IMG/VR virus record: IMGVR_UViG_3300021962_000104
Coordinates: 1 to 62,063 of that record
Length of the DNA stretch: 62,063 bases
Strand: one strand, 5' to 3'
From: a virus
Part shown: positions 1,338 through 44,507 of the stretch, piece by piece
Layout: each line of letters begins with the position of its first letter
Position numbering within the stretch: the stretch's first letter is position 1
Program-made: the position numbers and the translations under genes
The notes under the pieces: model-generated
Databases searched by the model: none
Told to the model about the DNA's origin: nothing
Seen by the model: only the letters and a program-made list of their open reading frames with translations

Positions 1338-2639
1338 ATGGTTCGAACAATTGTAGCCAAAGAAAAAGTAGATTGTGAGCATCTGCTTGGACAATTTGTA
1401 GATGAAAATCATTATGATGTCTTAGTAGAAGAAGATACAGATTGTTATATGCCCAACCTATTGGGTGGTGATGCTAAGACAGAACAAAATATCGCATTCA
1501 AGTTTCGTAAAAACTTTTTCACCAAGAAAGAACAAAAAGCGGCATATGAAGGTCTGAGAGAAGCCGCACTACCAACTCAAAATCGCGGACTTGCTGCTGG
1601 ACCAAAGGGCGCAATGTGCGGTGGACGTGAGTGGGTTACTGAGTTTCAATTGCGTGTGTTACAGTACTTTCAGAAGGGACAGGAGAACACTGCAATCAAA
1701 ATTGATGCGGAGAAAGAGGTCGCTAATCTCCGCGAGTTATATGGAGAAAAAGAATCAACACGCGGTCTTGTTTGGCTTTCGGCAAAAGTAAAGGCTGATA
1801 ATTTTCAGTTTGAAAAATGGCTGAAGGGTGCATTGAAGGCATCTGTGAAAGCCAGAAAGGAAGCAGCAAATAAAGTTGCAGAAAAATATATTTCAGATAC
1901 AACCTATGCCAATCAAGTCAATTCTGGTATCGCTGGTTGGTTTGATCGTTATCCACGCATTCCATACGGTCGTGCAACAGCCTACACGCAAAATGAATTT
2001 GATAAGTTTGAGAAGTCATTCCCATTCTTGCAGTCTCTAAATCGTGGATTCAAAGAACTTCTTCCGCAGCGTTGGGGGAATCAACGTGCTGCAGCAGATA
2101 CAATGGATCAGCGATTCCTAGTTCCTGAAACTGTATTCTCTACCATCACTGTTAATAAGACTTTCCGTACAGCCTGTCACCGCGATGCTGGTGACTTCAG
2201 CGATGGTCTAAGCAATCTGCTTGTACTTTCCAATGATGGTCGTTTCACTGGTGGTTATCTGGTATTCCCTGAGTATAGAACCGCAGTGAATGTGAGACCA
2301 GGAGATCTATTGCTTGTAAACAATCATGAGATCATTCATGGTAACACTCCAATTGTATGTGAAGAAGGTAGCGAGCGTATCAGTCTAGTTTGTTATCTTC
2401 GAGAGAAGATGCTTGAGTTGGGTTCTTATGAATATGAGAATTGGCGCTATCAGTTTGTTGAATCAAGAAGGCTCAACAAAGAACACAAACTTTGGAAGCC
2501 ACTCTGGAATGGTGTAAGTGAAGGTATGTGGGATTCCGATGAGTGGTTTGAGTATCTAGAAAAGAACGGCGGAGCAGAGATGGTGGAAAAATACCATCCA
2601 AAAACTGAATCTGCATCTACATTGGATGCATTTCTATAA
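1338..2639 (+). CDS. TET/JBP-family 2-oxoglutarate/Fe(II) DNA-pyrimidine dioxygenase
   Basis: 433 residues. The C-terminal half carries the double-stranded beta-helix signature: HRD (H281, D283), a GG-L-FPEY strand, PGDLLLVNN, the distal iron ligand H334 in HGNTPI, and R347 placed to bind 2-oxoglutarate. The H-x-D-AGDF context with the FTGGYLVFPE strand is the TET/JBP pattern rather than that of prolyl hydroxylases. Known members oxidise the methyl group of 5-methylcytosine (TET, some phage enzymes) or thymine (JBP) in DNA. The N-terminal 200 residues include a Lys/Glu-rich helical insert (about 120-185). It is the first gene of a cluster whose other members fit base tailoring. Whether the substrate is 5mC or T cannot be decided; no cytosine-5 methyltransferase lies in the window. 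ATG 1338 follows AGGAG. Confidence 0.75.
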   Translation: MVRTIVAKEKVDCEHLLGQFVDENHYDVLVEEDTDCYMPNLLGGDAKTEQNIAFKFRKNFFTKKEQKAAYEGLREAALPTQNRGLAAGPKGAMCGGREWVTEFQLRVLQYFQKGQENTAIKIDAEKEVANLRELYGEKESTRGLVWLSAKVKADNFQFEKWLKGALKASVKARKEAANKVAEKYISDTTYANQVNSGIAGWFDRYPRIPYGRATAYTQNEFDKFEKSFPFLQSLNRGFKELLPQRWGNQRAAADTMDQRFLVPETVFSTITVNKTFRTACHRDAGDFSDGLSNLLVLSNDGRFTGGYLVFPEYRTAVNVRPGDLLLVNNHEIIHGNTPIVCEEGSERISLVCYLREKMLELGSYEYENWRYQFVESRRLNKEHKLWKPLWNGVSEGMWDSDEWFEYLEKNGGAEMVEKYHPKTESASTLDAFL

Positions 2640-3328
2640 TGTGTGCCGTAATTGGGGTGTTGCTTGCCCAGGCAACCGAAGAAAATCTAAGTCTAGTCCG
2701 CAATGTATTCCTTGAGTCTAGGATTCGAGGATTACATGCAACTGGAATTTCATTCTTACAGAAAAACATAAAATCAATCATTGATCCTGTTCCAGCGGAT
2801 CAATTTGTGAATCGTCATCTAACATATCCAATTGAAAACTATCTAAACAGCGACGGCAATCTATACATGATTGGTCACTGCAGATATAGCACCAGTGATC
2901 TTGAGTACAATCAACCGATCTATAATGATCGCGCTTCAATAGTCCACAATGGTGTCATCTCTCAGGAACTCTATGAGAACTGGGAGAAACTATACAAGAT
3001 CAAAACAAAAACAAAAAATGACTCTGAGTTGCTTTTACACACAATAGAAAACGAACCACTGCAACTATGGGAGAATGCTTCCATCGCAGCAATTGAACTT
3101 CATCATGAGCGTATGTTGATTGCATATCGCAACGGAAAGCGACCTATATATTTGACAAAGTTGAAGAATGGTTATATAATTACTTCTACGAAAGACATTA
3201 TGACTCGCGCATCAAAGGGTAAATACGAAGCCAAGATGCTTGAGATGAATCAGCGTGTTGTGATGACTGCTGAAGATTTTTCTTATAGATATATTCCTAC
3301 CAATAGTTATGACTTGCAAATTCATTGA
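2639..3328 (+). CDS. Class II (Ntn-type) glutamine amidotransferase domain protein
   Basis: 229 residues, starting Met-Cys so that removal of Met exposes the N-terminal cysteine nucleophile (MCAVIGV). Further class II hallmarks are the RGLHATGI loop, GHCRYST, the oxyanion-type segment IVHNGVIS, and NDSELLLHTI. Such domains release ammonia from glutamine for a synthetase partner. There is no attached synthetase domain, so ammonia would go to another protein or the enzyme acts as an amidase. Its ATG overlaps the dioxygenase stop (TAATG), implying coupled translation and a role in the same pathway. A DNA-modification role is inferred from context only. Confidence 0.8.
   Translation: MCAVIGVLLAQATEENLSLVRNVFLESRIRGLHATGISFLQKNIKSIIDPVPADQFVNRHLTYPIENYLNSDGNLYMIGHCRYSTSDLEYNQPIYNDRASIVHNGVISQELYENWEKLYKIKTKTKNDSELLLHTIENEPLQLWENASIAAIELHHERMLIAYRNGKRPIYLTKLKNGYIITSTKDIMTRASKGKYEAKMLEMNQRVVMTAEDFSYRYIPTNSYDLQIH
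3152..3180 (+). promoter_or_regulatory. Consensus sigma70-like promoter inside the amidotransferase gene
   Basis: TTGACA (3152-3157), 17 bases, TATAAT (3175-3180). It would give extra transcription of the acetyltransferase, transferase and kinase genes. It is inside coding sequence and lacks the ATG at +7, so it may be fortuitous. Confidence 0.45.
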
Positions 3329-3950
3329 TTCAGAACAAGTAAAGCATATTCTAGTAAAATCTACCGAAGGAAAGAATACCAAATTTCTTTCTGCTTCACA
3401 CAGTCTTTGGACTAGATTTAAGAACTATGATTCAAGTCCACCATTTGCACTGATCAAGAATGATCAGGTTGTTTCTCTAATCTACGCCACATTCAATCGC
3501 GATGGATATACTAATCTATATGACATTGTTACAGTGCAGGGTCAAGAAGGGCATGGGTATGCATCTGAGATTTGGGATCACTATGTTGAATATGCTTGCA
3601 ATAAGAAGAATAGTAAACGATTAAAAATCTCTTGTACACCTTCTTCTCTAACATGGCACATGCGCAATGGTCTTGTTTTTTGGGCTGTGGATCCAACTGG
3701 ATCTTTGCGTAGTGATCAACCAATATTCAAGAATAGAGAAGAGCAAATGATCTTTCGTAAACTAGCAATTGATGATCCATCCATAGCACTACCTTCAGAA
3801 AAGGCTTGTGAAAGATTGCGTAAAGAATCATTAGAATCCCATGAGTTTGGCACTAAGAAAAAATCAATTGTTGAACAAGCAATAAAAACTGCTGGTGAAA
3901 CATGGCTTCGTGATGCATTATTTGGGAAGACATTATTCGATGTCGCATGA
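3309..3950 (+). CDS. GNAT-family acetyltransferase-like protein
   Basis: 213 residues. The central part reads as a GNAT fold: a strand (PFALIKNDQVVSLIYA), then YDIVTVQGQEGHGYASEIW, where QGQEGHG-A matches the acetyl-CoA pyrophosphate-binding loop (Q/R-x-x-G-x-G/A), then a helix and the strand LKISCTPSS. The C-terminal 70 residues are helical and unassigned. It overlaps the amidotransferase gene by 20 bases. GNATs acetylate amines, so it could modify an amino group added to the phage base by its neighbours; that is inference. Confidence 0.6.
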   Translation: MTCKFIDSEQVKHILVKSTEGKNTKFLSASHSLWTRFKNYDSSPPFALIKNDQVVSLIYATFNRDGYTNLYDIVTVQGQEGHGYASEIWDHYVEYACNKKNSKRLKISCTPSSLTWHMRNGLVFWAVDPTGSLRSDQPIFKNREEQMIFRKLAIDDPSIALPSEKACERLRKESLESHEFGTKKKSIVEQAIKTAGETWLRDALFGKTLFDVA

Positions 3951-4935
3951 AAGACGTGAACTATTCATTCGCTGGTATGCGTGGTCTCTAGAATATAGAG
4001 ACTGCGATCCAGCGGTATGGATGACTCAATATCTAAACAATAGATATGAGCATAACATAGAAGAAAGAATCTGGCTATGCTGGTTGTATGGAAATACATA
4101 CCAGCTTCCAACTGCATGGGTTCTAAAAAATGAATTCCCCGACTATGAGTTGGCGACTGTAGATCGCATCACTCAATGGAACACTGCAAACTATAAGAGA
4201 CTTCGCTACCAAGTAGATACGAAGTGGAACAAGGGTCATCTTCCTGCGATGTTTGAATCCTATCAAAAATTTATTGGTGACAAATCGCAGAAGGAAGTCC
4301 TGGAGAGTTACTATGGCGACAACGAAGAAGAAACCTTCGACAATCTATGGAATGCTATTAAAACTAATCTTCATAAGTTTGGTCGTTATTCCACTTGGTT
4401 TTATCTACAACACTTGCATCACACTGCTGGAATATTTGCGGCTCCTACTAGCCTTATGTTCTCTGATTATTCTGGCTCTCGTTCACATCGTAATGGCTTT
4501 GTTCTTGCCATCGGCGAGGATGACAGTTATGATAAACAACTTACTGCAAAAGAATATCAAAATCTTGAGGGAGTGGCTAAAGATATAATTGTTGAAATGC
4601 GTGAAAGATTCCCCAATTTATCTCATGAAATAGATTTTTATACAATGGAAACCTGTCTGTGCTCATTCAAGAAGATATTCCGAGAGCATCACGGTCGTTA
4701 TCTTGGCTATTATCTTGATCGCCAGTCAGAAGAAATCGTGCGAGCGGAACAAGATGGTTGGTATGGTATTGAGTGGAATGTTCTTTGGCAAGCAAGAAAT
4801 GAAACGCTATTTCCTGCACTCGCTGGAAGAAATAAAATTAACAAAGAAAACTTTACTTACTTCTTGAGATCAGGTAAACTACAACGAATGGACTGGATGT
4901 TCGAAGATAAGACAGAGATAGGATTGTATGCCTAA
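3940..4935 (+). CDS. Amino acid:DNA transferase-like helical protein (aGPT-PPlase/ADDT type)
   Basis: 331 residues from ATG 3940. The start gives an 11-base overlap with the GNAT gene; the in-frame ATG at 3895 would overlap 56 bases. It is mostly helical and rich in W and Y. Segments such as EERIWLCWLYGNTYQLPTA, NEFPDYE, FGRYSTWFYLQHLHHTAG, SRSHRNGFVLAIG, ETCLCSFKK and GRYLGYYLDRQSEEI resemble what I recall of phage proteins called alpha-glutamyl/putrescinyl-thymine pyrophosphorylase or amino acid:DNA transferase. Those replace the activated 5-hydroxymethyl group of a modified pyrimidine in DNA with an amine-bearing group. The assignment is from memory of the family pattern, not from a search. 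Context (TET, kinase, amidotransferase) supports it. Confidence 0.6.
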   Translation: MSHERRELFIRWYAWSLEYRDCDPAVWMTQYLNNRYEHNIEERIWLCWLYGNTYQLPTAWVLKNEFPDYELATVDRITQWNTANYKRLRYQVDTKWNKGHLPAMFESYQKFIGDKSQKEVLESYYGDNEEETFDNLWNAIKTNLHKFGRYSTWFYLQHLHHTAGIFAAPTSLMFSDYSGSRSHRNGFVLAIGEDDSYDKQLTAKEYQNLEGVAKDIIVEMRERFPNLSHEIDFYTMETCLCSFKKIFREHHGRYLGYYLDRQSEEIVRAEQDGWYGIEWNVLWQARNETLFPALAGRNKINKENFTYFLRSGKLQRMDWMFEDKTEIGLYA

Positions 4936-5494
4936 GATAATTGCAATTGGTGGTGTTCCTGCAACGGGAAAGACCACTCTTATGTTTAAGATCATTTCAA
5001 TGGCTGATGACTGGAAGGTTATCAAGCCACAGAAACTTTTGGACGCAATGTTCAGCAAGAAATTGCGAACTGTAATTCTTGGTAAGTATCAAGATGATGG
5101 TAACGTATTCCAGGGAACTGATCGTCTAAGCATGGCAGTCCAACCAGACGCTGAAAAGTTCTTTGAAGAAGTCAAAGAGCAGAAGATCAACGTGCTGTTT
5201 GAGGGTGATCGTCTATTCAATGCAAAGATGTTAAACTCTCTGTCTGAGTCATACAGTGAATCAGACTTTAGAATTGTGGTCATACAAGCCAATCACGATA
5301 TCGTAGAACAGAGACATATTGATCGCAAGGATGACCAAGATGAGAAATTCAAGCGCAGTCGCGAAACAAAAATCTCAAACATCAGCGGAAACCTCCAGTT
5401 GATGGACTATATAGATACTGTAGACAATAATAATCTTGATGATCAAAAATTGATCATTGAATATATTAGCAAACATTTTAACTGGAGTGAATAA
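4928..5494 (+). CDS. P-loop kinase, candidate hydroxymethylpyrimidine DNA kinase
   Basis: 188 residues. A Walker A motif (GGVPATGKTT, residues 8-17) starts the protein and a Walker B-like strand (INVLFEGDRLF) lies mid-chain. An Arg-rich lid follows (RHIDRKDDQDEKFKRSRE). The fold is that of small nucleotide or polynucleotide kinases. In thymidine-hypermodifying phages a DNA kinase phosphorylates 5-hydroxymethyluracil in DNA before amino-acid transfer. This gene overlaps the transferase-like gene by 8 bases, so that role is proposed here. A free-nucleotide kinase is the main alternative. Confidence 0.6.
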   Translation: MPKIIAIGGVPATGKTTLMFKIISMADDWKVIKPQKLLDAMFSKKLRTVILGKYQDDGNVFQGTDRLSMAVQPDAEKFFEEVKEQKINVLFEGDRLFNAKMLNSLSESYSESDFRIVVIQANHDIVEQRHIDRKDDQDEKFKRSRETKISNISGNLQLMDYIDTVDNNNLDDQKLIIEYISKHFNWSE

Positions 5495-5496
5495 TT

Positions 5497-6309
5497 ATGC
5501 AGATTGAAATCTCAGTAGAAGAACTAAGAAAAAAGAAACTGTTCGTTGCAACACCGATGTATGGTGGTCAGTGTTTTGGTATGTACACCAAGTCAGCACT
5601 TGATCTACAGGCTGTTTGTGCTAACTATGGAGTTGAGATTCGATTCTCATTTATCTTTAATGAATCGCTAATCACAAGAGCAAGAAACTATCTAGTAGAT
5701 GAATTCTTGCGTTCTGGATTCACTCATCTACTATTCCTAGATTCAGATATTCATTTTGATCCAAGAGACGTGATTGCACTTCTTGCTTTGGATAAAGAAA
5801 TCATTGGCGCACCGTATCCAAAGAAGTCAATCAAGTGGAATGCAATCAAAGATGCGATCGTAAAGAATCCTAATATTGAAGTCAAAGAACTGGAGAAACT
5901 TGCTGGTGATTTTGTGTTCAATCCAGTTCCTGGCACAGAAAGGTTCTCAGTTTCTGCACCAATTGAAGTTCTAGAAATTGGAACTGGATTCATGATGGTG
6001 AAGCGTGAAGTGTTCAAGCAGTTTGAAGAGAGATATCCTAATTTGCGATACAAGCCAGATCATGTTGGTCAGGCTAACTTCGATGGATCTCGTTACATTC
6101 ACGCATACTTTGACACTGTAATTGATACAGTAGAGAATGGTGGTAAGGGGTCTGATCGTTATCTATCTGAGGACTACATGTTCTGTCAGTGGTGGAGAAA
6201 CATGGGTGGTAAGATTTGGTTATGTCCATGGATGAAGACTCATCATATTGGTACTTATGCCTTCACAGGAGACATGCCAGCAGTGGCGAATTTCGTGGGG
6301 TCTTTGTGA
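5497..6309 (+). CDS. GT-A-fold glycosyltransferase
   Basis: 270 residues. An N-terminal strand (LFVATPMYGGQCFGMYT) and a helix with ITRARNYLVDEFL precede the metal and nucleotide-sugar binding strand HLLFLDSDIHFDP (DxD at about residues 86-88). Later residues include GTGFMMVKREVF, LSEDYMFCQWW and a metal-ligand-like HH in MKTHHIGT. This is the GT-A architecture of inverting or retaining phage glycosyltransferases. GGAG at 5483-5486 is its ribosome site. As last gene of the modification cluster it may glycosylate the hydroxymethylated or tailored base; a virion or host target is also possible. Confidence 0.7.
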   Translation: MQIEISVEELRKKKLFVATPMYGGQCFGMYTKSALDLQAVCANYGVEIRFSFIFNESLITRARNYLVDEFLRSGFTHLLFLDSDIHFDPRDVIALLALDKEIIGAPYPKKSIKWNAIKDAIVKNPNIEVKELEKLAGDFVFNPVPGTERFSVSAPIEVLEIGTGFMMVKREVFKQFEERYPNLRYKPDHVGQANFDGSRYIHAYFDTVIDTVENGGKGSDRYLSEDYMFCQWWRNMGGKIWLCPWMKTHHIGTYAFTGDMPAVANFVGSL

Positions 6310-6941
6310 TAATAGGTCTTGTTGGTTTTATAGGAAGTGGAAAGGGAACCGTCGCTGATCTTCTAGTAGAGCACCACGGTTTCGTCAAAGAGAGTTTTGC
6401 TAACAGCGTCAAAGATTCTGTGGCTGCTGTCTTTGGTTGGCATCGTGAATTGCTGGAGGGTGCAACGCCCGAGTCTAGACAATGGCGTGAGCAGAAAGAT
6501 GAGTGGTGGTCAAATGCTCTAGGTCGCGAAGTGACACCACGTTGGGTGTTACAGCTGATGGGTACTGAAGCAGGACGCGATGTGTTTCATCCCGATCTTT
6601 GGGTACACACTGTCTTCCGTAGAATAGATTGGCATCCCGAACAACACTACGTTATTGCTGATGTTCGTTTTCCAAACGAGATCAAAGCCATTCAAAAACA
6701 TGGAGGCAAAGTTGTTCAGGTCACTCGCGGTGATCTTCCTTGGTGGTATCAGAAAGCTGAGGATCATAATCGCGCAGGTGCACATTTTCAATGGCTGGTT
6801 GACAACGTCCATGAGAGTGAATGGGCATGGGTTGGTAGCACCGTTGATTATCTTCTCCCTAATACTGAAGATATAGAAACTCTAAAGGAAAGAGTTGACA
6901 ACATGGTTGGAATTTTATATAATAGTTATGTTACACAATGA
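6306..6941 (+). CDS. 1: Deoxynucleoside monophosphate kinase (T4 gp1-like)
   Basis: 211 residues from GTG 6306, which overlaps the previous stop (GTGA). The P-loop is GFIGSGKGT at residues 6-14. The body contains WRE-KDEWW, TPRWVLQLMGTE and VIADVRFPNEI, the pattern of T4 gene 1 dNMP kinase. T4's enzyme converts dTMP, dGMP and 5-hydroxymethyl-dCMP to diphosphates. Here it would feed phage DNA synthesis, and it lies between the modification operon and the clamp gene. Longer in-frame starts (6216) would lie inside the glycosyltransferase gene. Confidence 0.85.
   Translation: MIIGLVGFIGSGKGTVADLLVEHHGFVKESFANSVKDSVAAVFGWHRELLEGATPESRQWREQKDEWWSNALGREVTPRWVLQLMGTEAGRDVFHPDLWVHTVFRRIDWHPEQHYVIADVRFPNEIKAIQKHGGKVVQVTRGDLPWWYQKAEDHNRAGAHFQWLVDNVHESEWAWVGSTVDYLLPNTEDIETLKERVDNMVGILYNSYVTQ
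6895..6923 (+). promoter_or_regulatory. Perfect-consensus promoter before the sliding clamp gene
   Basis: TTGACA (6895-6900), 17 bases, TATAAT (6918-6923), inside the 3' end of the dNMP kinase gene and 28 bases before the clamp ATG. An ATG occurs five rather than seven bases after the -10. A normal leader with GAGG follows. Confidence 0.75.
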
Positions 6942-6950
6942 GGTATCTAT

Positions 6951-7619
6951 ATGAAACTAAGTACAGAAACAATTGATACATTGAAGAACTTTTCAACTAT
7001 CAATTCTAGTATTCTTTTCAAGTCTGGTAAGACATTGACAACAATCTCACCACTGAAGACTGTTCTAGCAACTGCTAAGATTGCTGAGGACATTCCAAGT
7101 GAGTTTGCCATCTATGATCTAAACAAGATGCTTGCTAAGATCGGACTACATAAAGATTGCGAACTGGAGTTTGAGGAAGATCGTGTAGTTTTTGATAGCG
7201 GTCGCCGTTCAGACTACATCAAGCATTGCTCACCAAAGGTGATTGTAACTCCACCAGATAAGAAGTTGACTGTCTCAAATCCAGATTATTCATTTGATCT
7301 AAGTCAGGAAGATCTTGAGTGGCAGCGTAAGAGCGCATCTATCTCAGGCTCACCAAACTTTGTATTTGAAAGCGATGGTGATAAGATCTATCTTGTGTCA
7401 ACTGACGTCAAGGATGATTCCGCTGATCGTTCTCAGACTGAGATTGGTGAAGGTGACGGTCGTAAGTTTTCTATTGTCATGAAGGTTGAGAACTTCAAGA
7501 TGATGGAAGGTAACTACACAATTGAAGTCTCAAAGCGTGGTCTGTCTAAGTTTACTAACAAGGACAAGGACATTGAGTATTTTATCGCAATCGAAGCAGC
7601 ACAATCGAGGTTTGAATAA
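6951..7619 (+). CDS. 45: Sliding clamp, DNA polymerase processivity factor (T4 gp45)
   Basis: 222 residues, close to T4 gp45 (228). The N-terminus (LSTETIDTLKNFSTINSSI), a domain-linking strand (DLSQEDLEWQRKSAS), and the C-terminal SIVMKVENFKMMEGNYTIE and YFIAIEA match the gp45 family. The trimeric clamp encircles DNA, tethers gp43 and, in T4, also activates late transcription. The gene is the first of the 45-44-62-regA series and has a perfect promoter and a GAGG ribosome site. Confidence 0.9.
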   Translation: MKLSTETIDTLKNFSTINSSILFKSGKTLTTISPLKTVLATAKIAEDIPSEFAIYDLNKMLAKIGLHKDCELEFEEDRVVFDSGRRSDYIKHCSPKVIVTPPDKKLTVSNPDYSFDLSQEDLEWQRKSASISGSPNFVFESDGDKIYLVSTDVKDDSADRSQTEIGEGDGRKFSIVMKVENFKMMEGNYTIEVSKRGLSKFTNKDKDIEYFIAIEAAQSRFE

Positions 7620-11010: not shown

Positions 11011-11443
11011 AAGATCGCTGAAGAATCTGGAAGGCGTTGATAGTAGATTGGTTGAGGTTGTGAATATCGCAATCAAACTCAGCACCGTGGACTTTGCTGT
11101 AATAGAAGGTTTGCGCACCATTGAAAGACAGAAGCAGTTAGTTGCGGCTGGCGCAAGTCAGACGTTAAAGTCAAAGCATATCAAAGGCGAGGCTGTCGAT
11201 CTAATGGCATTTATTGGTAGTCGCGGTTCCTGGGAACTCAATCTATACGATGAGATTGCCGATGCGATGAGAGAAGGTGCAATACAGGTTGGCATACCAA
11301 TTCGTTGGGGAGCAGCGTGGACTGTATCCGATATTCGTAAATGGAAGGGTACTATGGAAAGTGCCATGAATCGTTACATAGATGTGCGTAGATCAGAAGG
11401 CAAGCGACCATTTATTGACGCACCGCATTTTGAAATAGTTTAG
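10991..11443 (+). CDS. Endolysin, peptidase M15 (L-Ala-D-Glu/D,D-peptidase type)
   Basis: 150 residues from ATG 10991 (AAAGG upstream; 20-base overlap with regA). The zinc-peptidase signature is visible: EGLRT, then SKHIKGEAVDLMAF (H and D ligands) and DAPHFEIV near the end (catalytic residues and third ligand). No signal peptide is seen. M15 enzymes cleave peptidoglycan peptides; this would release progeny together with the holin-like and spanin genes at 41.9-42.9 kb. Its location in the replication cluster rather than with the spanins is notable. Confidence 0.85.
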   Translation: MAYRLSKRSLKNLEGVDSRLVEVVNIAIKLSTVDFAVIEGLRTIERQKQLVAAGASQTLKSKHIKGEAVDLMAFIGSRGSWELNLYDEIADAMREGAIQVGIPIRWGAAWTVSDIRKWKGTMESAMNRYIDVRRSEGKRPFIDAPHFEIV

Positions 11444-11485
11444 AATATATGAATGTGACTACTAATTTGAGGAATTATCTAAATT

Positions 11486-11797
11486 ATGAGTGAAGAAGCA
11501 GAAGCAGCACAGTCTGGTGCAAAAGCAAAACGTCAACCATGGGTTGATTATCTAATTGAAAAACTGGATGTCTATAATCTAGAAGCAGATAAGTTTCGCC
11601 CATATCGTTGGTACTTTCATGTGGTTCTGGAAGGTGTAAGAAGCGGAGTTGTAACCGATCGCCAGCAACTGAAAGAACAGATGCATGCATACACCAAGCA
11701 CGTGCCAAGTCTTTCAATCAATCCAGAAAAAACCAAGAATCATATTGAATGTATACAGGATTTTATCCTAAGAACATTTGACGGCGAGGAATCTTAA
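11486..11797 (+). CDS. Hypothetical protein, 103 aa
   Basis: Not recognised. The first 16 residues are Ala/Glu-rich and likely disordered; the rest (QPWVDYLIEKLDVYNLEAD, then KFRPYRWYFHVVLEGVRSG) looks helical and globular. A ribosome site (GAGGAA) precedes ATG 11486. It is the last gene before the hsp20 promoter, which overlaps its 3' end. Confidence 0.6.
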   Translation: MSEEAEAAQSGAKAKRQPWVDYLIEKLDVYNLEADKFRPYRWYFHVVLEGVRSGVVTDRQQLKEQMHAYTKHVPSLSINPEKTKNHIECIQDFILRTFDGEES

Positions 11798-11806
11798 CTA
11801 TATACT
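11778..11806 (+). promoter_or_regulatory. Sigma70-like promoter before hsp20
   Basis: TTGACG (11778-11783), 17 bases, TATACT (11801-11806), overlapping the end of the upstream gene. Confidence 0.55.
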
Positions 11807-11810
11807 ATTC

Positions 11811-11831
11811 GTGGATGCCTTCGGGATCCAC
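11811..11831 (+). promoter_or_regulatory. UUCG-tetraloop hairpin at the hsp20 leader start
   Basis: GTGGATGCC, TTCG loop, GGATCCAC: an 8-bp stem with one bulged G. It begins about where transcription from the promoter ending at 11806 would start, so it would cap the mRNA 5' end. A terminator of the upstream gene is less likely because no T-run follows. Confidence 0.45.
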
Positions 11832-11865
11832 ACTTTGTAAACTTGCTTAAATAAGGAGTAAACAC

Positions 11866-12309
11866 ATGACAAATCTAAAAGCAGTAAAGTCGCCATGGGA
11901 TTTTGATAAGTACCTACCATCTACCTTTCTAGGGTTTGATCATTTCTATGATCTATTCGATCGTGCCAGTGATTTGGTAAATTCTACCAACACAGCATTC
12001 CCTCCAGTCAACGTAATTCGCCACAATGAAGATACCTATATCATTGAAGTGGCAGTTGCTGGATATGCTCGCGACGAATTGTCTGCGGAAATTCACGACA
12101 ACACTCTAACCATTACAGGTGAGAAGAAGGCTGCAGAGGGGCGCGAGTATCTTGTAAAGGGTATTGCTGGTCGCTCATTCAAGCGTTCTTTCCTTGTAGC
12201 GGATACAGTGGTTGTTCGCGACGCAGCTCTAGCGGATGGCATTCTGTCAATCACTTTGGTAAATGTTGTTCCTGAAACACAGAAGCCACGCAAACTAGAG
12301 ATCAAGTGA
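11866..12309 (+). CDS. hsp20: Small heat-shock protein, Hsp20/IbpA family
   Basis: 147 residues. The alpha-crystallin domain is clear: PPVNVIRHNEDTYIIEVAV, GYARDELSAEIHDNTLTI, GEK, and the closing ADGILSITLVNVVPE. An N-terminal LGFDHFYDLFDRASD segment and a C-terminal basic tail complete the family pattern. It holds unfolding proteins soluble; hsp20 genes are common in T4-like cyanophages and other aquatic myoviruses, perhaps to help virion assembly. It has its own promoter and an AAGGAG ribosome site. Confidence 0.92.
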   Translation: MTNLKAVKSPWDFDKYLPSTFLGFDHFYDLFDRASDLVNSTNTAFPPVNVIRHNEDTYIIEVAVAGYARDELSAEIHDNTLTITGEKKAAEGREYLVKGIAGRSFKRSFLVADTVVVRDAALADGILSITLVNVVPETQKPRKLEIK

Positions 12310-12755
12310 AAGAAAAATTTTTATCATTGTATTGTGACATAGCCGAAAGAATCGCAGAGCTGTCTTATGCCGAGCGTCTGAAGGTGGGTGCGGTGATTGT
12401 AAAAGATCACCGCATTCTTTCTTATGGCTACAATGGCACACCGTCTGGATTTGATAATGTCTGTGAACTGAACATGACATCGGTGAGCGATTCAGTCACC
12501 AAGCCAGAAGTGATTCACGCTGAGCAAAATGCGCTGATGAAAGTAACACGCAGTCATGATTCAACAGAAGGCGCAGCCATGTTTATCACACACTCGCCGT
12601 GCGTAGACTGCGCCAAGTTGATCCTACAGTCGGGCATTCGCGACGTGTACTTCATTCACGCATACCGCAACGATGCTGGACTGAGAGTGCTAGAGGCTGG
12701 TGGAGTTTCCCTCCATCAAGTTATCAAGGCTGAACCCCTACCACTCCCCCTATAA
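12306..12755 (+). CDS. cd: dCMP deaminase
   Basis: 149 residues from GTG 12306, overlapping the hsp20 stop (GTGA). Zinc and catalytic motifs: HAEQNALMK (H ligand, E proton shuttle) and SPCVDCAK (two Cys ligands). The early segment KVGAVIVKD-RILSYGYNGTPSGFDN is typical of deoxycytidylate deaminases. It makes dUMP for thymidylate synthesis, here by the phage ThyX at 44504. A Pro-rich C-terminus ends the protein. Confidence 0.9.
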   Translation: MKEKFLSLYCDIAERIAELSYAERLKVGAVIVKDHRILSYGYNGTPSGFDNVCELNMTSVSDSVTKPEVIHAEQNALMKVTRSHDSTEGAAMFITHSPCVDCAKLILQSGIRDVYFIHAYRNDAGLRVLEAGGVSLHQVIKAEPLPLPL

Positions 12756-27056: not shown

Positions 27057-28025
27057 ATGTCTATATTGGTGACGGGTGGATGTGGTTTCATTGGTAGTAA
27101 TTTTGTTCGTCGTTATGCAAGTCTATACGATGATCGAATCATGGTGCTGGATGCGCTGACCTATGCAGCCAATAAACAAAACATAGAAGGTACAGGGGCA
27201 GTTATCGCTGTTGGTAACATTGCATCGCGCGAGTTCGTTGAACCGCTGATACGCAACTTTCGCCCAAAGACCATTGTAAACTTTGCTGCTGAAAGTCATG
27301 TGGATAATTCCATTCGTGACTCTAAGCCATTCGTATACAGCAATGTGTTAGGCACTGTCAATCTACTTGATTGCGTATTGGCTGTTGATCCAAGCATTCG
27401 CTTTGTGCATGTTTCAACCGACGAAGTATATGGCTCGCTGAGTTCATCTGATCCAGCGTTCAGCGAAACCACTGCATATGATCCGCGCAGTCCATACTCT
27501 GCTTCCAAGGCTGCATCAGATCACTTTGTAATGGCATATCATCATACGCATGCTTTGGATACTGTAATCACCAACTGCTCAAACAACTATGGTGCTTATC
27601 AGCATGCAGAGAAGTTTGTGCCAACTGTAATTCGTAAAGCATTGAAGAATGAACCTATCCCTGTCTATGGCAAGGGTCATAATATTCGCGACTGGCTGTA
27701 CGTTGAAGATCACTGCCAAGCCATCATTGACGTAATTGAGCGTGGTCGCACAGGACATAAATATAACATTGGCGGTGGATGTCAGGTGAATAATCTATTC
27801 CTTGCCAATCTAATCATTGACATGTGCCGCTCGGCATCAAAGATTGAATTTGTAACTGATCGCAAAGGTCATGATTTTAGGTATGATGTTTCTTATGATA
27901 AGATACATCTAGAACTTGGATGGAAACCAACTACCAGTCTAATCCCTGGTATGGAGAAAACCATTCAGTGGTATCGACAGAATATGGAGTGGCTTGAACT
28001 ATGCAGACCCTCGGTGTCATCCTAG
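27057..28025 (+). CDS. rmlB: dTDP-glucose 4,6-dehydratase
   Basis: 322 residues. Rossmann GGCGFIGSNFVRR (TGxxGxxG), NFAAESHVDNSI, the catalytic region VSTDEVYGSL, and YSASKAASDHFV with the Y-x-x-x-K pair. NNYGAYQHAEKFVP and IPVYGKGHNIRDWLYVEDH are diagnostic for RmlB/RfbB. It converts dTDP-glucose to dTDP-4-keto-6-deoxyglucose. It opens a six-gene module with rmlA, a 3-dehydrase, an oxygenase, rmlC and rmlD. Confidence 0.92.
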   Translation: MSILVTGGCGFIGSNFVRRYASLYDDRIMVLDALTYAANKQNIEGTGAVIAVGNIASREFVEPLIRNFRPKTIVNFAAESHVDNSIRDSKPFVYSNVLGTVNLLDCVLAVDPSIRFVHVSTDEVYGSLSSSDPAFSETTAYDPRSPYSASKAASDHFVMAYHHTHALDTVITNCSNNYGAYQHAEKFVPTVIRKALKNEPIPVYGKGHNIRDWLYVEDHCQAIIDVIERGRTGHKYNIGGGCQVNNLFLANLIIDMCRSASKIEFVTDRKGHDFRYDVSYDKIHLELGWKPTTSLIPGMEKTIQWYRQNMEWLELCRPSVSS

Positions 28026-28882
28026 CTGGAGGCAAGTCTAGTCGTTTGTTCCCAGCAACACTTGTAACAACCAAACAAGTATTGCCAATCTACGACAAGC
28101 CTTTAATATATTATCCTATATCAACGCTAATGCTGGCTGGCGTTCGCGAATTCTTGATTATAACTAATCCAAAAGAGAAGCCAATCTTTGAGGAATTATT
28201 CTATGACTCAGAGAACACTCTGGGTATTAAAGTGATGTTTGCTACTCAGGATTATCCAGCAGGTATCGCTGATGCATTCAATATTGTAAACGAACAATTC
28301 CTTGGTGGTTATGATCGCTATGCCTTAGTTCTAGGTGACAATATTTTCTATGGTGCGGGCATGAGTGAGTTGTTACATGAAGCACATTACGACGATCAAG
28401 AACGCGCATATTGTTTCTTGACTAAGGTTCACGATCCTGAACGATTCGGTGTCGCAGAACTTTCAGATCAGGGTGGTGTGATGTCTATTGAAGAGAAACC
28501 AGAACATCCAAAGAGCAATCTTGCAATCACTGGATTGTATTTCTTCCCAAAAAATGTGTTGGATAGGATTCGTAAATTGAAACCCTCTAACCGAGGTGAA
28601 TTAGAAATCACTGATCTATTGAAGACTTACATGGAGACTGGTGATCTAACAGGAATTAAACTGTGGCGCGGAGTGGTTTGGTTTGATACTGGTACACCAG
28701 ATTCATTAATTGAAGCGTCTAACTTTGTACAAACTATACAAAAACATCAGGAAGTTTTGGTTGGCTCTCCGCACGAAATAGCGTATAATAAGTATTGGAT
28801 TACAAAAGATCAACTAAACACAACTGCATTGCTATGTGGTAAATCATCATATGGCAAACTTCTTTCTTCTTTGGAGGATTAA
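28001..28882 (+). CDS. rmlA: Glucose-1-phosphate thymidylyltransferase
   Basis: 293 residues. GVILAGGKSSRLFPATLVT is the nucleotide-binding signature (GGxGxRL), with KQVLPIYDKPLIYYPIS, VLGDNIFYG and GELEITDLLKTYM, all typical of RmlA. It makes dTDP-glucose from glucose-1-phosphate and dTTP. The start overlaps rmlB by 25 bases. Confidence 0.92.
   Translation: MQTLGVILAGGKSSRLFPATLVTTKQVLPIYDKPLIYYPISTLMLAGVREFLIITNPKEKPIFEELFYDSENTLGIKVMFATQDYPAGIADAFNIVNEQFLGGYDRYALVLGDNIFYGAGMSELLHEAHYDDQERAYCFLTKVHDPERFGVAELSDQGGVMSIEEKPEHPKSNLAITGLYFFPKNVLDRIRKLKPSNRGELEITDLLKTYMETGDLTGIKLWRGVVWFDTGTPDSLIEASNFVQTIQKHQEVLVGSPHEIAYNKYWITKDQLNTTALLCGKSSYGKLLSSLED
28761..28789 (+). promoter_or_regulatory. Possible internal promoter TTGGCT-N17-TATAAT
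   Basis: TTGGCT (28761-28766) and TATAAT (28784-28789) near the end of rmlA, upstream of the 3-dehydrase. Weak -35; no ATG at +7. Confidence 0.3.
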
Positions 28883-30189
28883 TGGAAATTGAAAGTTTAA
28901 TTAGAGATATCATTCAGCATCATGGGATGCCTAAGTATGCATCATACAATCCAAAGGAGTTTAACCCAGAGAAAGATAATGTATTTTATTCTGGACCTTA
29001 TTGGGATGAGAATGAAGTTATTGCTGGTGTGACTGCATTTCTAACTGGTAAATGGTTAGTTTCTGGAGAAAATGTAGCCAAGTTTCAATGGAGATTTTGT
29101 CGCAAGTTTAACGTGAAGCATGCACACATGGTGAACTCAGGATCATCTGCAAATTTAACGATGGTTACTGCATTGAAGAAACATTTGGGATGGAAAGACG
29201 GAGATGAAGTAATCGTATCTCCAGTTGGATTCCCAACCACCATTGCTCCAATTGTGCAAAATAATCTGAAGCCAACTTTCATTGATATTGAATGGTCAAC
29301 ATTAAATTTCGATTTAACTTTGATTGAGTCGAGAATCACAGATAGAACAGTAGCAATCTTTGTATCTCCAGTGCTGGGTAATCCACCAGACATGGATGTG
29401 CTGAGGATGATTGCGGAAAAGCATAACTTGGTATTGGTTGGCGACAATTGCGATTCATTGGGCAGTAAGTGGGATGGCAAGTTGCTGACCGACTACTACT
29501 ATTCGTGGACAACTTCTTTCTACCCAGCACATCATATGACAACTGGCGAAGGTGGTATGGTCTGCTCTAATGACGAAGAATTGATTAATACTGTTCGTTC
29601 TATTTCATGGTGGGGTAGAGATTGTCGATGCGTTGGTTCTGCTAACCTCTTGGCTTGTGGTACATGTGGCAATCGTTTTGATAAGTGGTTGGAAGGTTAT
29701 GATGGGATTATTGATCACAAATATCTTTTCACCAATATGGGATACAATTTAAAGCCACTGGATCTGCAAGGCGCAATTGGTATTGAACAATTGAAAAAGA
29801 TTGATCAAATTGATGTCAAGCGCAGAGAAAACTTTTCGACTATCAAAGAAATGTTTGCTGTAGTTCAAGGTGTTAGAGTTGCTAGTAACTTAGAAAAGTC
29901 TGATCCATCTTGGTTTGGTGTACCATTGGTTTGCGATAACTCTAAGTTGAAAGAAGAACTGCAACAATTCTTGGAGGATAACAGAATCCAGACTCGTAAT
30001 TATTTTGCAGGTAATATTTTATTGCATCCTGGATACAAACACTTAGATAACGCAGCAGACTATCCTATGTCTAATCTTGCGCTTTCCCATGTATTCTTTG
30101 TGGGATGCCCTCCACACTACAACAAGAGAGTGTTTGATTATTATAGATCAGTGCTAGAAAAATGGAGAAGTTTGCATGATATCGTATGA
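28882..30189 (+). CDS. rfbH: NDP-4-keto-6-deoxyhexose 3-dehydrase (RfbH/E1-like)
   Basis: 435 residues, DegT/DnrJ aminotransferase fold. In the active-site segment SFYPAHHMTTGEGGMV the usual PLP-binding lysine is replaced by His (H217), as in the E1/ColD 3-dehydrases that use PMP/PLP without forming the lysine aldimine. A Cys-rich stretch (RDCRC, then LACGTCGNRF) resembles the [2Fe-2S] site of E1, so it would need an electron donor. It would turn a 4-keto-6-deoxy sugar nucleotide into a 3-deoxy product, towards 3,6-dideoxyhexoses. The usual donor is CDP-linked; here the neighbours make dTDP-sugars, so the real substrate is uncertain. Confidence 0.85.
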   Translation: MEIESLIRDIIQHHGMPKYASYNPKEFNPEKDNVFYSGPYWDENEVIAGVTAFLTGKWLVSGENVAKFQWRFCRKFNVKHAHMVNSGSSANLTMVTALKKHLGWKDGDEVIVSPVGFPTTIAPIVQNNLKPTFIDIEWSTLNFDLTLIESRITDRTVAIFVSPVLGNPPDMDVLRMIAEKHNLVLVGDNCDSLGSKWDGKLLTDYYYSWTTSFYPAHHMTTGEGGMVCSNDEELINTVRSISWWGRDCRCVGSANLLACGTCGNRFDKWLEGYDGIIDHKYLFTNMGYNLKPLDLQGAIGIEQLKKIDQIDVKRRENFSTIKEMFAVVQGVRVASNLEKSDPSWFGVPLVCDNSKLKEELQQFLEDNRIQTRNYFAGNILLHPGYKHLDNAADYPMSNLALSHVFFVGCPPHYNKRVFDYYRSVLEKWRSLHDIV

Positions 30190-30928
30190 TGCTATTTTGG
30201 AAATAGAAAATGGTGAATTGTGTGAGGAACCATTTAATCACATAATCATCGATGATTTCTTCACAGAAGACTTTGCAATTAAACTATCAAACCAATTTCC
30301 TGAATATAATAATTCTCCTTGGTATAACTATGACAATCCACTAGAAGTCAAGCGCGCAATGAATTTTTGGGATAAATTCCCACCAGAAACCTTTCAAGCA
30401 TTTTGGATTTTGTGTCAACAGAAGTTCGCTTTTCTGTTATCTAGAAAATTCAACGCTCAATTGCATGCAGATTATGGATTGAATGGTGGTGGCTGGCATA
30501 TGCACGGTAGAGGTGGTAAGTTAAACATACACCAAGATTATTCTATTCACCCAAAGATGAACATGCAGAGAAAGTTAAATATTATCATATATCTTTCACA
30601 AGAATGGGATTGCGATTGGAATGGTGGTCTGCAATTTTGGTCGCATGATGAGGAGGATTTCAGACCAAAAGAATTAGTCAAAACCATAGATGTGAGGTTT
30701 AATCGTGCTGTGATTTTTGACACTACTCAAAATTCTTGGCATGGATTTCCAGAACCAATTACTTGCCCAGAGGGAGTATATAGAAAATCGATTGCGGTGT
30801 ATTATGTTATGAATCCAACACTAAACGCAGACACTAGAACCAGAGCACTATATTTCCCAACTAAAGAGCAAGAAAATGATCCTAATGTTTTGAGGTTGAT
30901 TGAATTGAGGAGGGATGTGCAGAGATGA
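30176..30928 (+). CDS. 2OG-Fe(II) oxygenase (prolyl-hydroxylase-like)
   Basis: 250 residues. H-x-D is in LNIHQDYSIHP (H119, D121), the central strand is LNIIIYLSQEWDCDWNGGLQFW, and the second His is H189 in SWHGFPEP, with an Arg (RKSIAVYY) to hold 2-oxoglutarate. Family: 2OG-Fe(II) oxygenase with hydroxylase activity. It lies inside the dTDP-sugar module with 14- and 4-base overlaps, so it could hydroxylate a sugar or the glycosylated product; a protein substrate is also possible. Confidence 0.82.
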   Translation: MISYDAILEIENGELCEEPFNHIIIDDFFTEDFAIKLSNQFPEYNNSPWYNYDNPLEVKRAMNFWDKFPPETFQAFWILCQQKFAFLLSRKFNAQLHADYGLNGGGWHMHGRGGKLNIHQDYSIHPKMNMQRKLNIIIYLSQEWDCDWNGGLQFWSHDEEDFRPKELVKTIDVRFNRAVIFDTTQNSWHGFPEPITCPEGVYRKSIAVYYVMNPTLNADTRTRALYFPTKEQENDPNVLRLIELRRDVQR

Positions 30929-31467
30929 GTGAACCTAAATTGATAACTGGAATGAATGAAGTAACTATCTTCGAAGATCATAGAGGTGGTTTCACTGAAT
31001 TATGGAACTCAACTAAGTCACCATTCAGTTCCTTGTATTTCATACAACAAAATGTTTCATTGAACAAGAAAAATGTATTTCGCGGACTACACTATCAAGA
31101 AGAATATCCCCAAGGTAAAATGGTATATGTGATGAGAGGTCGCGTTATAGATTTCATTATTGACTTGAGGAAGTGGTCTCCTAATTACAAGAAAGTTCAG
31201 ATGTATGAGTTGAGTGAGGATAAACTAAATTATCTTTGGGTCCCCCAGCACTTTGCTCATGCGTTTTTGAGTTTAGAAGACAACACTGCATTCTGCTACA
31301 ATGTATTTGATAATATTAGATACCCAGAGGACGAACGCTGTGTTTCATTTTTGACTGTGCCAGAAATAGTCAATGAGGTGGTAAAACATGTTCTTCTTGA
31401 AGACATTATCATAACTGATAAAGATCGTAATGGTTTACACATAGATGAGGCACCTGACTATGATTGA
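30925..31467 (+). CDS. rmlC: dTDP-4-dehydrorhamnose 3,5-epimerase
   Basis: 180 residues. FEDHRGGFTELWN, NVFRGLHYQ (the RmlC signature containing the catalytic His), VMRGRVIDFIIDLRKWSPN and WVPQHFAHAFLSLED all match the cupin-fold epimerase. It epimerises C3 and C5 of dTDP-4-keto-6-deoxyglucose. Confidence 0.92.
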   Translation: MSEPKLITGMNEVTIFEDHRGGFTELWNSTKSPFSSLYFIQQNVSLNKKNVFRGLHYQEEYPQGKMVYVMRGRVIDFIIDLRKWSPNYKKVQMYELSEDKLNYLWVPQHFAHAFLSLEDNTAFCYNVFDNIRYPEDERCVSFLTVPEIVNEVVKHVLLEDIIITDKDRNGLHIDEAPDYD

Positions 31468-32287
31468 ACGAGTTTTGTTGTTTGGATCTAATGGACAAAT
31501 CGGTAATTCAATGATTGAATTGCTGGAGACATCGTATTCTACAATCGCAATGAATAGCGATAACATAGATTACAATTCTAGAGAAGAATTGGATAAGTTA
31601 TTCAAGTTCATCAGACCCCATCATGTGATCAATTGCGTGGCTTATACTGATGTAGATGGAGCTGAGAAGCCAAACAATCATGATAAGTGTCGCTATCTGA
31701 ATTATTCTTTTCCGCTACACTTAAATTATTTGTGCGCTCAGTATAATTCCCAGTTCATTCATTTTGGAACGGATTATGTCTTTGATGGTACTAAAGAATC
31801 CTATACAGAGAAAGATTATCATAACCCATTAAATTTCTATGGATCAACTAAGTCTGAGATTGAACGATCATTGAATTATAGTAAGACCAAACTTTTCAGA
31901 GTCCAGTGTGTATATTCTGGTAGAAATAAGAACTTCTATAAGAGCATTGATGCATTGGCTGATAAATTGGAATCCATCAATGTGATAGATGATCAGATCA
32001 CTTGCCCAACTCATGCTGCCTGGATTGCAGAAATGGTCTTCAATGTATTAGATGAACCCCAATATGGTATATTTAATCTAAATCCTGACGGTAATTGCAG
32101 TTTTGCAGAATTCGCAGAACTTATAGTCGGAGATAGATGTAAGATTAATAAGATAACTACAGAGGAATACGTTGCGTCCAAGACCAAGAGACCGAAAAAT
32201 GGTGTTCTGAATAATTCCAAGTTCAAGCAAACCTTTAATTTTTCTTCTCTGCCTACATGGGATCAAGTATACAAAAAGTATAAATAA
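31460..32287 (+). CDS. rmlD: dTDP-4-dehydrorhamnose reductase
   Basis: 275 residues from ATG 31460 (8-base overlap with rmlC). VLLFGSNGQIGNSMIELL is the NAD(P)-binding GxxGxxG; VINCVAYTDVDGAEK and FHFGTDYVFDGT-type segment (HFGTDYVFDGTKESYTE) with YGSTKSEIE (Y-x-x-x-K) are diagnostic. It completes dTDP-L-rhamnose synthesis. Its last codons contain the late promoter of the next block. Confidence 0.9.
   Translation: MIERVLLFGSNGQIGNSMIELLETSYSTIAMNSDNIDYNSREELDKLFKFIRPHHVINCVAYTDVDGAEKPNNHDKCRYLNYSFPLHLNYLCAQYNSQFIHFGTDYVFDGTKESYTEKDYHNPLNFYGSTKSEIERSLNYSKTKLFRVQCVYSGRNKNFYKSIDALADKLESINVIDDQITCPTHAAWIAEMVFNVLDEPQYGIFNLNPDGNCSFAEFAELIVGDRCKINKITTEEYVASKTKRPKNGVLNNSKFKQTFNFSSLPTWDQVYKKYK
32279..32286 (+). 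promoter_or_regulatory. T4-type late promoter TATAAATA
   Basis: Exact TATAAATA overlapping the rmlD stop, 31 bases before the first gene of the capsid-core block. T4 late promoters consist of this motif alone. Confidence 0.7.
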
Positions 32288-32316
32288 GAGAGTAACAATT
32301 CCCACAGAGTGGATAA

Positions 32317-43955: not shown

Positions 43956-44507
43956 ATGTCACATGTATTAGAAGGTAAAAAGATACCCAACGTGGTATTC
44001 AAGGTTCGCGTTCCTAGTTTTGAGGCAACTCAACAGGGAACATGCGCAATTGAAATTTGGGAAGATGTAAAGAGCCGCGATCTATTCAAGCGCAAGCGCG
44101 CAATTTTGTTTGCACTTCCTGGCGCATTCACTCCAACCTGCTCAACAAAGCAGCTGCCAGGATATGATCGTATGTTCGACACATTCAAGGAATATGGAAT
44201 CAAGAACGTCTACTGTCTATCTGTCAATGACTCATTCGTCATGAACGCATGGGCAAAGGATCAGGCACTCAAGAATGTAAAGATGATTCCAGACGGCAGT
44301 GGAGCATTTACCAAGAAGATGAAGATGGCTGTCAAGAAGGACAATCTGGGCTTTGGCGTTCGCAGCTGGCGTTATGCTGCTGTAATTCGTAACAGCGTCA
44401 TTGAGAAGATGTTCGTTGAGCCAGGATTTGCAGATAACTTTGAGTCTGATCCATACGGCGAGTCATCACCTGAAAATGTATTGGCGTGGTTGAAGAACAA
44501 TCCATGA
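43956..44507 (+). CDS. Peroxiredoxin, Prx5-like
   Basis: 183 residues from ATG 43956 (AGGAG upstream). FALPGAFTPTCSTKQLPGY contains the peroxidatic Cys in the P-x-x-x-T/S-x-x-C arrangement, and NDSFVMNAWAKDQ is Prx5/AhpE-typical. It reduces peroxides. Thioredoxin, its usual reductant, is encoded at 45713, so the phage may bring its own thiol defence during infection. Confidence 0.9.
   Translation: MSHVLEGKKIPNVVFKVRVPSFEATQQGTCAIEIWEDVKSRDLFKRKRAILFALPGAFTPTCSTKQLPGYDRMFDTFKEYGIKNVYCLSVNDSFVMNAWAKDQALKNVKMIPDGSGAFTKKMKMAVKKDNLGFGVRSWRYAAVIRNSVIEKMFVEPGFADNFESDPYGESSPENVLAWLKNNP

Follow-up and report, generated by a model that had tools for sequence, protein, structure and literature searches.

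In kinetoplastids, base J is made by JBP1 and JBP2 together with a glucosyltransferase: thymine in DNA is hydroxylated by a TET/JBP-type enzyme and decorated next. Another route was described for phages M6, ViI and phiW-14, in which 5-hydroxymethyluracil (5hmU) is followed by a kinase step and then by amine transfer on DNA (PMC6449724). In Gordonia phage Wooper, ParB, a Tet-like J-binding protein, aGPT-Pplase2 and a 5-hmU DNA kinase are annotated together, and a five-gene system whose first four genes are as in Wooper was published for Rhodococcus phage Tonitrus (PMC11955845). We analyzed a gene set of this kind at positions 1338-6309 of the IMG/VR virus record IMGVR_UViG_3300021962_000104, the entire 62,063 bases of which we call the window. 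The set encodes a TET/JBP dioxygenase (TET), a glutaminase, a GNAT-type acyltransferase, an amino acid:DNA transferase (ADDT) and a P-loop kinase, followed by a glycosyltransferase. We consider it fairly probable that the genes form a cassette for post-replicative hypermodification of thymine.

End repeats were absent from the window, and it is therefore probably a fragment. Based on its clamp, clamp-loader and UvsX-like genes, we assign the virus to the T4 superfamily. The initial annotation regarded this combination of enzymes as undescribed, which does not hold for its core. TET, ADDT and 5hmU kinase are already known as neighbours in Wooper by annotation and in Tonitrus by publication (PMC11955845), the kinase being of the PF18751 family. 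What is new is a larger, modular version in phages of the T4 superfamily. Using Pfam, we confirmed the ADDT and the kinase of Wooper; its TET was under the cut-off (5.7e-4) and its ParB gave no match. Wooper differs from the window in that the annotated ParB leads the set, TET has 286 aa instead of 433, ADDT is 32% identical to that of the window, and genes 1-5 gave no match to glutaminase, GNAT, amide ligase or TAGT. TET and ADDT of the window are separated by two genes. In Mycobacterium phage Zemanar, ParB is annotated, TET is under the cut-off, ADDT matches at 5e-9 and the kinase match is weak (48 bits). We found no published description of the version with glutaminase, GNAT or amide ligase in a partial coverage of the literature, and parts of it may have been predicted earlier; a term search in PMC5977210 and PMC5219037 found nothing on such a system.

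Protein families encoded by the cassette

The six genes, the hairpin and promoter-like site before them, the dNMP kinase and clamp genes behind them and the genes for dCMP deaminase and ThyX lie on the + strand. The six genes adjoin or overlap as first annotated, at 1338-2639 (TET), 2639-3328 (glutaminase), 3309-3950 (GNAT), 3940-4935 (ADDT), 4928-5494 (kinase) and 5497-6309 (glycosyltransferase); neighbouring open reading frames (ORFs) overlap by 1-20 bases or leave a 2-base gap. The ADDT gene starts with ATG at 3940, and the mechanically called ORF begins at GTG 3895. The DNA-modification reading and the Pfam families proposed at the outset were supported, for the window copies of the kinase and glycosyltransferase only weakly. 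The two assignments set beforehand as a profile test, 1338 to Tet_JBP (PF12851, 4.1e-22) and 3940 to ADDT (PF18724, 4e-19), were both above the Pfam cut-offs (78.6 bits vs 34.9 and 69.7 bits vs 26.2, respectively).

The TET protein (433 aa) is a predicted 2-oxoglutarate/Fe dioxygenase, which we propose to be a thymine hydroxylase acting on DNA. Residues H281, D283, H334 and R347 were invariant across 37 aligned sequences including that of the window, and we take them to be the iron and 2-oxoglutarate ligands. We obtained a structure model with a mean predicted local distance difference test (pLDDT) of 83. Its best structural match was TET2-DNA (Z 19.9, 264 aligned, root-mean-square deviation 4.4), followed by CMD1 (Z 17.8), NgTET1 (17.3) and CcTET (17.3), and AlkB/FTO reached at most 13.9. 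The fold was named from the Foldseek ranking together with this second structural alignment, the Foldseek template modelling scores of the 26 top TET-family rows being modest (0.26-0.47 by query length). We conclude that the modelled protein has a DNA-type TET fold, and we propose that it would oxidise the 5-methyl group of a pyrimidine in DNA. Among PDB sequences, the TET profile matched clavaminate synthase, and TET2 at 0.1. Neither TET nor ADDT received a usable name from NCBIfam. Among named phages, TET relatives with a query coverage of at least 80% were present in DLP6 (51% identity), Cr30 (47%), C48C1 (47%) and S-CBWM1 (29%). Cr30 also has an ADDT match (2.4e-54), a relative of the kinase (42%) and, under cut-off, a weak match to TAGT (8.5e-4). 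The TETs of DLP6 (AAY80_030) and Zemanar (gp2) carry the annotation 'SNF2 DNA repair protein' or 'queuine tRNA-ribosyltransferase'.

The ADDT profile that we used for counting includes divergent sequences later counted with it (from loci L016, L031, L049 and L059 and from Cr30). Six of the seven divergent or outside copies were above the Pfam ADDT cut-off (L086, L077, L031, L016, L049 and Zemanar). A search of PDB sequences with ADDT gave no match up to E 1. The P-loop kinase is proposed to phosphorylate 5-hydroxymethyl-pyrimidine in DNA. Its homologues matched PF18751 in 25 of 32 aligned sequences (E ≤0.01, best 1.7e-15), and the annotated 5-hmU DNA kinase of Wooper belongs to the same Pfam family (9e-59). 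In PDB sequences, the kinase profile found mostly P-loop regions of unrelated proteins. Members of this kinase family are annotated as 'terminase small subunit' in Cr30 (gp114), Zemanar (gp4) and MementoMori (gp3).

The glutaminase (229 aa) is a single-domain class II glutamine amidotransferase (GATase_6 PF13522, 1.2e-11) which holds the glutaminase domain alone, with no fused synthase domain of the AsnB, GlmS or PurF type. The catalytic Cys, which follows the start Met, was invariant in 20 aligned sequences, as were the HNG and ND residues; no PDB sequence matched up to E 0.001. A glutamine amidotransferase domain in phage DNA modification is also known from Gat-QueC of phage 9g, where it differs in being fused to QueC and serving deazaguanine chemistry (PMC6884629). 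The GNAT of the window (Acetyltransf_1 PF00583, 1e-4, 23 bits vs cut-off 20.7) is called GNAT-A below.

Exchange of modules downstream of TET

We collected loci by TET and ADDT searches (best 80 of 125 and best 80 of 180). To lessen the bias of this collection, further loci were then gathered with glutaminase, kinase and glycosyltransferase alignments (best 80 each of at least 591, 512 and 594). These sets are not independent: 13, 28 and 10 of the 80 glutaminase, kinase and glycosyltransferase loci, respectively, were already in the first set, and others lie on known contigs. After GenBank phage loci, short re-fetched pieces and duplicate contig views (L094, L170) had been dropped from the first set, 157 IMG/VR loci were scored with profiles built in this analysis. 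L014, a contig of 37 kb whose eight compared proteins are identical to those of the window, was retained in the counts.

A complete TET was present in 123 of the 157 loci, and 87 of these also had a downstream glycosyltransferase, which gives the order TET - variable block - glycosyltransferase. Within the 87 loci we observed ADDT together with kinase in 64, kinase alone in two, ADDT alone in none and neither gene in 21; the latter carried TAGT (14 loci), a GT-B glycosyltransferase (6) or an unassigned ORF (1). Representatives of TAGT and GT-B matched PF20691 (5.3e-13) and PF00534 (2e-7), respectively. When the loci were made non-redundant at 90% TET identity (n = 45), the counts were 33 for ADDT with kinase, 0 for ADDT alone, 1 for kinase alone and 11 for neither. 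Since ADDT with kinase alternates with a glycosyltransferase across the 87 loci, there seem to be two exclusive branches after oxidation, namely phosphorylation with amination, or glycosylation. The relatives among uncultivated viruses would retain the first step, TET, and exchange the decoration.

Of the 36 complete-TET loci lacking a downstream glycosyltransferase, 29 end within 6 kb and seven are arranged otherwise. These seven obey the same either/or rule: in L044 the glycosyltransferase lies upstream and glutaminase, ligase, ADDT and kinase are all present, four have the GT-B cluster and two have cluster 13. L092 and L113, also among the 36, carry ADDT without kinase at contig ends. Cluster 13 (five members, L032 and L034 among the loci) is an ORF of about 335 aa that gave no Pfam match and stands at the glycosyltransferase position after TET; the cluster names LMWP8, HNH18 and GT13 were given by eye (no Pfam match or no Pfam run). 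Another TET module was seen in Pelagibacter phage HTVC112P (L005 6973-9195), with ParB-like, TET and FkbM-family methyltransferase genes in a row.

Similar results were obtained from the other anchors. Where upstream sequence was visible, the glutaminase had TET as its immediate upstream neighbour in 78 of 79 loci (exception L283), and ADDT lay downstream of it in 68 of 68. The kinase had ADDT before it in all 76 loci, and TET was present in 31 of 31 judgeable kinase loci, one of the 80 kinase loci (L355) having no profile match. This gene order is kept across many contigs, and therefore a chance arrangement is excluded.

The interval between glutaminase and ADDT varied (n = 82). It held the window-type GNAT in 19 cases and an amide-ligase-like protein in 61, 53 of which also held a second GNAT, and it was empty in two; GNAT-A and the amide ligase were never found together (0/82). 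Amidoligase_2 was matched by 11 of 15 ligase homologues at E ≤0.05 (best 2.5e-8), and a model of the ligase (pLDDT 92) was closest to YbdK (Z 10.9), with glutamine synthetases at Z about 10. By Foldseek alone the ligase was weak, with one match under 1e-3, and the name was given from the Z of 10.9 and the Amidoligase_2 matches. The modelled protein resembles a carboxylate-amine ligase of the glutamine-synthetase fold. As GNAT and ligase both acylate amines, their exchange suggests a common amine handle on the base. An ATP-dependent amide ligase acting on a phage DNA handle is known from CmoX/CmoY, which make carboxymethylcytosine glycine amide; that system differs in using cytosine, a carboxyl handle and an asparagine-synthetase-type ligase (PMC12783734), whereas here the base is probably thymine, the handle would be an amine and the ligase is of the glutamine-synthetase fold. 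A ParB-like (weak; cluster PARB3, PF02195 0.023) or HNH-like ORF occupied the slot in 26 of the 82 relatives, and none is present among the six window genes.

The glutaminase accompanies one ADDT clade only. In the 87-locus set it was found only with ADDT (51/51). All 83 glutaminase-linked ADDTs were at least 50% identical to that of the window and all 16 unlinked ones at most 32%, the glutaminase status being not judgeable for 21 further ADDTs. Other genes were seen near ADDTs. A myo-inositol-1-phosphate synthase gene lies between a divergent ADDT and the kinase in seven loci (L077, L083, L086-L089 and L093), and Cr30 has one after its ADDT (gp121; L002 14293-15471; PF01658 4e-21); such neighbours may point to an inositol-bearing base. 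Between TET and ADDT, L016 has an ORF (11352-12350) with no Pfam match that by eye looks like a pyridoxal phosphate-dependent cysteine synthase, and L031, L040, L043 and L049 have an N6/N4-type DNA methylase (PF01555, 1.9e-16 for L049).

The glycosyltransferase at 5497, initially counted as a specific member of the operon, was ruled out as such. It is a conserved backbone gene beside the clamp gene (phrog_1574, 5e-60; Pfam Anp1-like, weak, 1.4e-5, under cut-off), because its family is found without TET both in glycosyltransferase-anchored loci and in complete phages. Among the best 80 loci, 43 had upstream sequence too short to judge, and 22 of the 37 judgeable ones showed no TET within 7 kb upstream. 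Seven TET-less contigs (48-173 kb) had no Tet_JBP match anywhere, in a search that gave no match in its own controls and used the model that matches DLP6, Cr30 and C48C1. The family also precedes the clamp gene in the complete phages phiM12, RHph_I1_18 and OC, none of which has a Tet_JBP match. A likely sugar-nucleotide cluster of nucleotide-sugar epimerase, aminotransferase and cytidyltransferase genes at 27057-35738 of the window could feed glycosyltransferases.

Substrate base and proposed reactions

TET requires a 5-methyl group, i.e. thymine or 5-methylcytosine (5mC) made by a C5-methyltransferase. We found no C5-methyltransferase (PF00145) in the window, in 21 TET-bearing contigs (28-173 kb, 11 of them carrying ADDT) or in DLP6, Cr30 and C48C1. 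As a control, a Melnitz phage was matched, and 64 of 66 TET loci of the Melnitz type had a C5-methyltransferase just before TET. The thymidylate synthase family (PF00303) was not found in the window, which is a fragment, or in the same 21 contigs. Flavin-dependent thymidylate synthase ThyX, for the ordinary supply of deoxythymidine monophosphate (dTMP), was present in eight of 13 tested records including the window (44486-45175; PF02511 2.8e-43), and a dCMP deaminase family protein that could supply deoxyuridine monophosphate is encoded at 12306-12755 (PF00383 5e-23). Because ThyX and dCMP deaminase are encoded, we conclude from the gene content that these phages make ordinary dTMP. Since neither a C5-methyltransferase nor a thymidylate-synthase-type hydroxymethylase was found, the records are read most simply as oxidation of T within DNA, and thymine in DNA is the likely substrate. 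This agrees with the initial annotation, which suggested that oxidation could take place on DNA rather than before replication.

From the gene content, families, order and co-occurrence established here, and from the absence of other hydroxymethyl sources in the searched records, we infer the following reactions, base, product and purpose. The phage would make ordinary dTMP via ThyX and T would be incorporated into DNA, where TET would hydroxylate its 5-methyl group to give 5hmU. The P-loop kinase would phosphorylate the hydroxymethyl group to phosphomethyluracil, and ADDT would swap the phosphate for an amine or amino acid, with the glutaminase probably helping. In the window, GNAT would acylate the resulting amine; in relatives, an ATP-dependent amide ligase may act instead of GNAT, or a glycosyltransferase instead of the kinase-ADDT branch. 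There are good grounds to expect a new end product, and its purpose may be resistance to host nucleases. For DLP6, a restriction test names 18 enzymes (PMC5349666). The 5hmU kinase step and the following amine transfer on DNA would be as in ViI, M6 and phiW-14, where, however, 5-hydroxymethyldeoxyuridine is thought to join the nucleotide pool before replication (PMC6449724); here we observed TET, and no thymidylate-synthase-type enzyme in the window or the 21 contigs.

Several observations weigh against this pathway. The window and most relatives are fragments, which weakens the absence of a methyltransferase; it weighs strongly only for DLP6, Cr30 and C48C1, which are complete, and for contigs of 140-173 kb, and of these three complete phages only Cr30 has ADDT. 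Cr30 also has one PF00303 protein, and so an alternative source of 5hmU is possible there; the PF00303 proteins found in Cr30, phiM12 and RHph_I1_18 may be either synthases or hydroxymethylases. The window kinase matched AAA_33 (0.0017) and Ploopntkinase3 PF18751 (0.0025) weakly, both under the cut-off, and PHROGs places it in phrog_800 'terminase small subunit' (8e-14), a name that we take for a misannotation. The divergent ADDT of L059 had no Pfam match at E 0.01, and the role of the glutaminase in the cassette is guesswork. Residues near HxD were tried as a discriminator between thymine and 5mC and rejected, as the window (HRDAGD) and methyltransferase-linked Melnitz TETs (HVDSGD) were not separated.

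We regard it as unlikely that the substrate of TET is 5mC, produced by a methyltransferase of the host or by an unrecognised one of the phage, and that the cassette builds a hypermodified cytosine. Other phages have TET-like enzymes for which such a route has been suggested, the TET structures closest to the model belong to enzymes that act on 5mC, and around HxD the window resembles methyltransferase-linked TETs. In addition, Melnitz phages pair a C5-methyltransferase with TET and in 19 of 43 loci with a kinase of the same family. Yet these phages carry the methyltransferase almost always (64/66) and none was found in the clade of the window, few sites are expected from host methylation, and ADDT and its kinase are known from thymidine pathways (PMC6449724). 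As a separate observation, C5-methyltransferase and TET in L007 (4010-8090) and in loci of the Melnitz type (L176-L246), joined in 19 of 43 loci by a kinase of this family, suggest a possible 5-hydroxymethylcytosine DNA kinase route. That TET and the 5497 glycosyltransferase make glycosyl-5hmU as in base J, with the four intervening genes accessory, seems to us quite improbable. DLP6 TET lies four genes from the same glycosyltransferase family, and 20 loci have TET, then another glycosyltransferase, then one of the 5497 type; but the 5497 family occurs without TET, and in the 87 loci ADDT and kinase replace the extra glycosyltransferase and do not stand beside it. The likeness to base J would be limited to hydroxylation of T in DNA with decoration next: here kinase and ADDT would decorate, and only the TAGT/GT-B relatives look J-like. 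Modification of RNA or of a virion component is very hard to reconcile with the predicted DNA-type TET fold, the ADDT family and the location beside replisome genes, and we give it hardly any weight.

Concerning the glutaminase of the proposed thymine pathway, we tentatively suggest that it works with its ADDT clade as a glutamine-dependent amidotransferase of DNA, although this may well prove wrong. Ammonia from glutamine would displace the phosphate of 5-phosphomethyl-uracil to yield 5-aminomethyl-deoxyuridine, which GNAT would acylate in the window, or to which the amide ligase would couple a carboxylic or amino acid in relatives. We know of no earlier case in which a glutaminase feeds the amination of a base derived from thymine in DNA. 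It is also conceivable, if doubtful, that glutaminase, amide ligase and GNAT act off DNA, where they would produce or deprotect a special amino acid or a small amide for ADDT to attach. Class II glutaminases with a single domain are also able to hydrolyse gamma-glutamyl conjugates; YbdK and glutamate-cysteine ligase, which the slot ligase resembles, have small molecules as substrates; and the slot varies while ADDT is constant. On the other hand, CmoY is a precedent for a phage amide ligase acting on DNA (PMC12783734), and the glutaminase tracks one ADDT clade even without the ligase, as in the window.

Flanking signals, neighbouring genes and significance

The operon is preceded by a terminator-like hairpin (1255-1275; nine pairs, seven of them G-C; consensus match only) and an exact promoter-like site TTGCCA-N17-TATAAT (1283-1311), which has one further exact match in the window at 830-858. 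Allowing up to two mismatches, we counted 27 such sites in the window vs 8.5 expected, a number reached by 0 of 100 shuffles; it is probably the promoter type of this phage. General promoter-like sites were not enriched (27 vs 24.7 in shuffles), and other 12/12 consensus sites were found at 3152, within the glutaminase gene, and at 6895, before the clamp gene. A single promoter, as initially annotated, is therefore plausible from the exact site behind the hairpin, and the sites at 3152 and 6895 and the lack of excess over shuffles speak against it. Downstream, a dNMP kinase (6306-6941; phrog_139, PHROGs 6.4e-47) and a sliding-clamp-like protein (6951-7619; 36% identical to the annotated DLP6 clamp and 32% to the Cr30 DNA polymerase processivity factor) serve as landmarks. 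A gene for an HSP20 small heat-shock protein (11866-12309; 3e-15) adjoins that for dCMP deaminase.

In summary, these results suggest a second entrance to thymine hypermodification, in which TET would act on DNA and take the place of a hydroxymethylated nucleotide pool, and which would be common in uncultivated T4-like viruses. Interchangeable end modules, i.e. glycosyl, acyl, amide and possibly inositol, may be placed on a shared handle. If this is true, these viruses would offer enzymes for amine chemistry on DNA and predicted targets for modification-dependent defences, and cultured relatives with TET, ADDT and kinase exist in Cr30 and Wooper. If the tentative role of the glutaminase is also true, amination of a thymine-derived base in DNA would be fed by glutaminase, with end modules exchanged between viruses.

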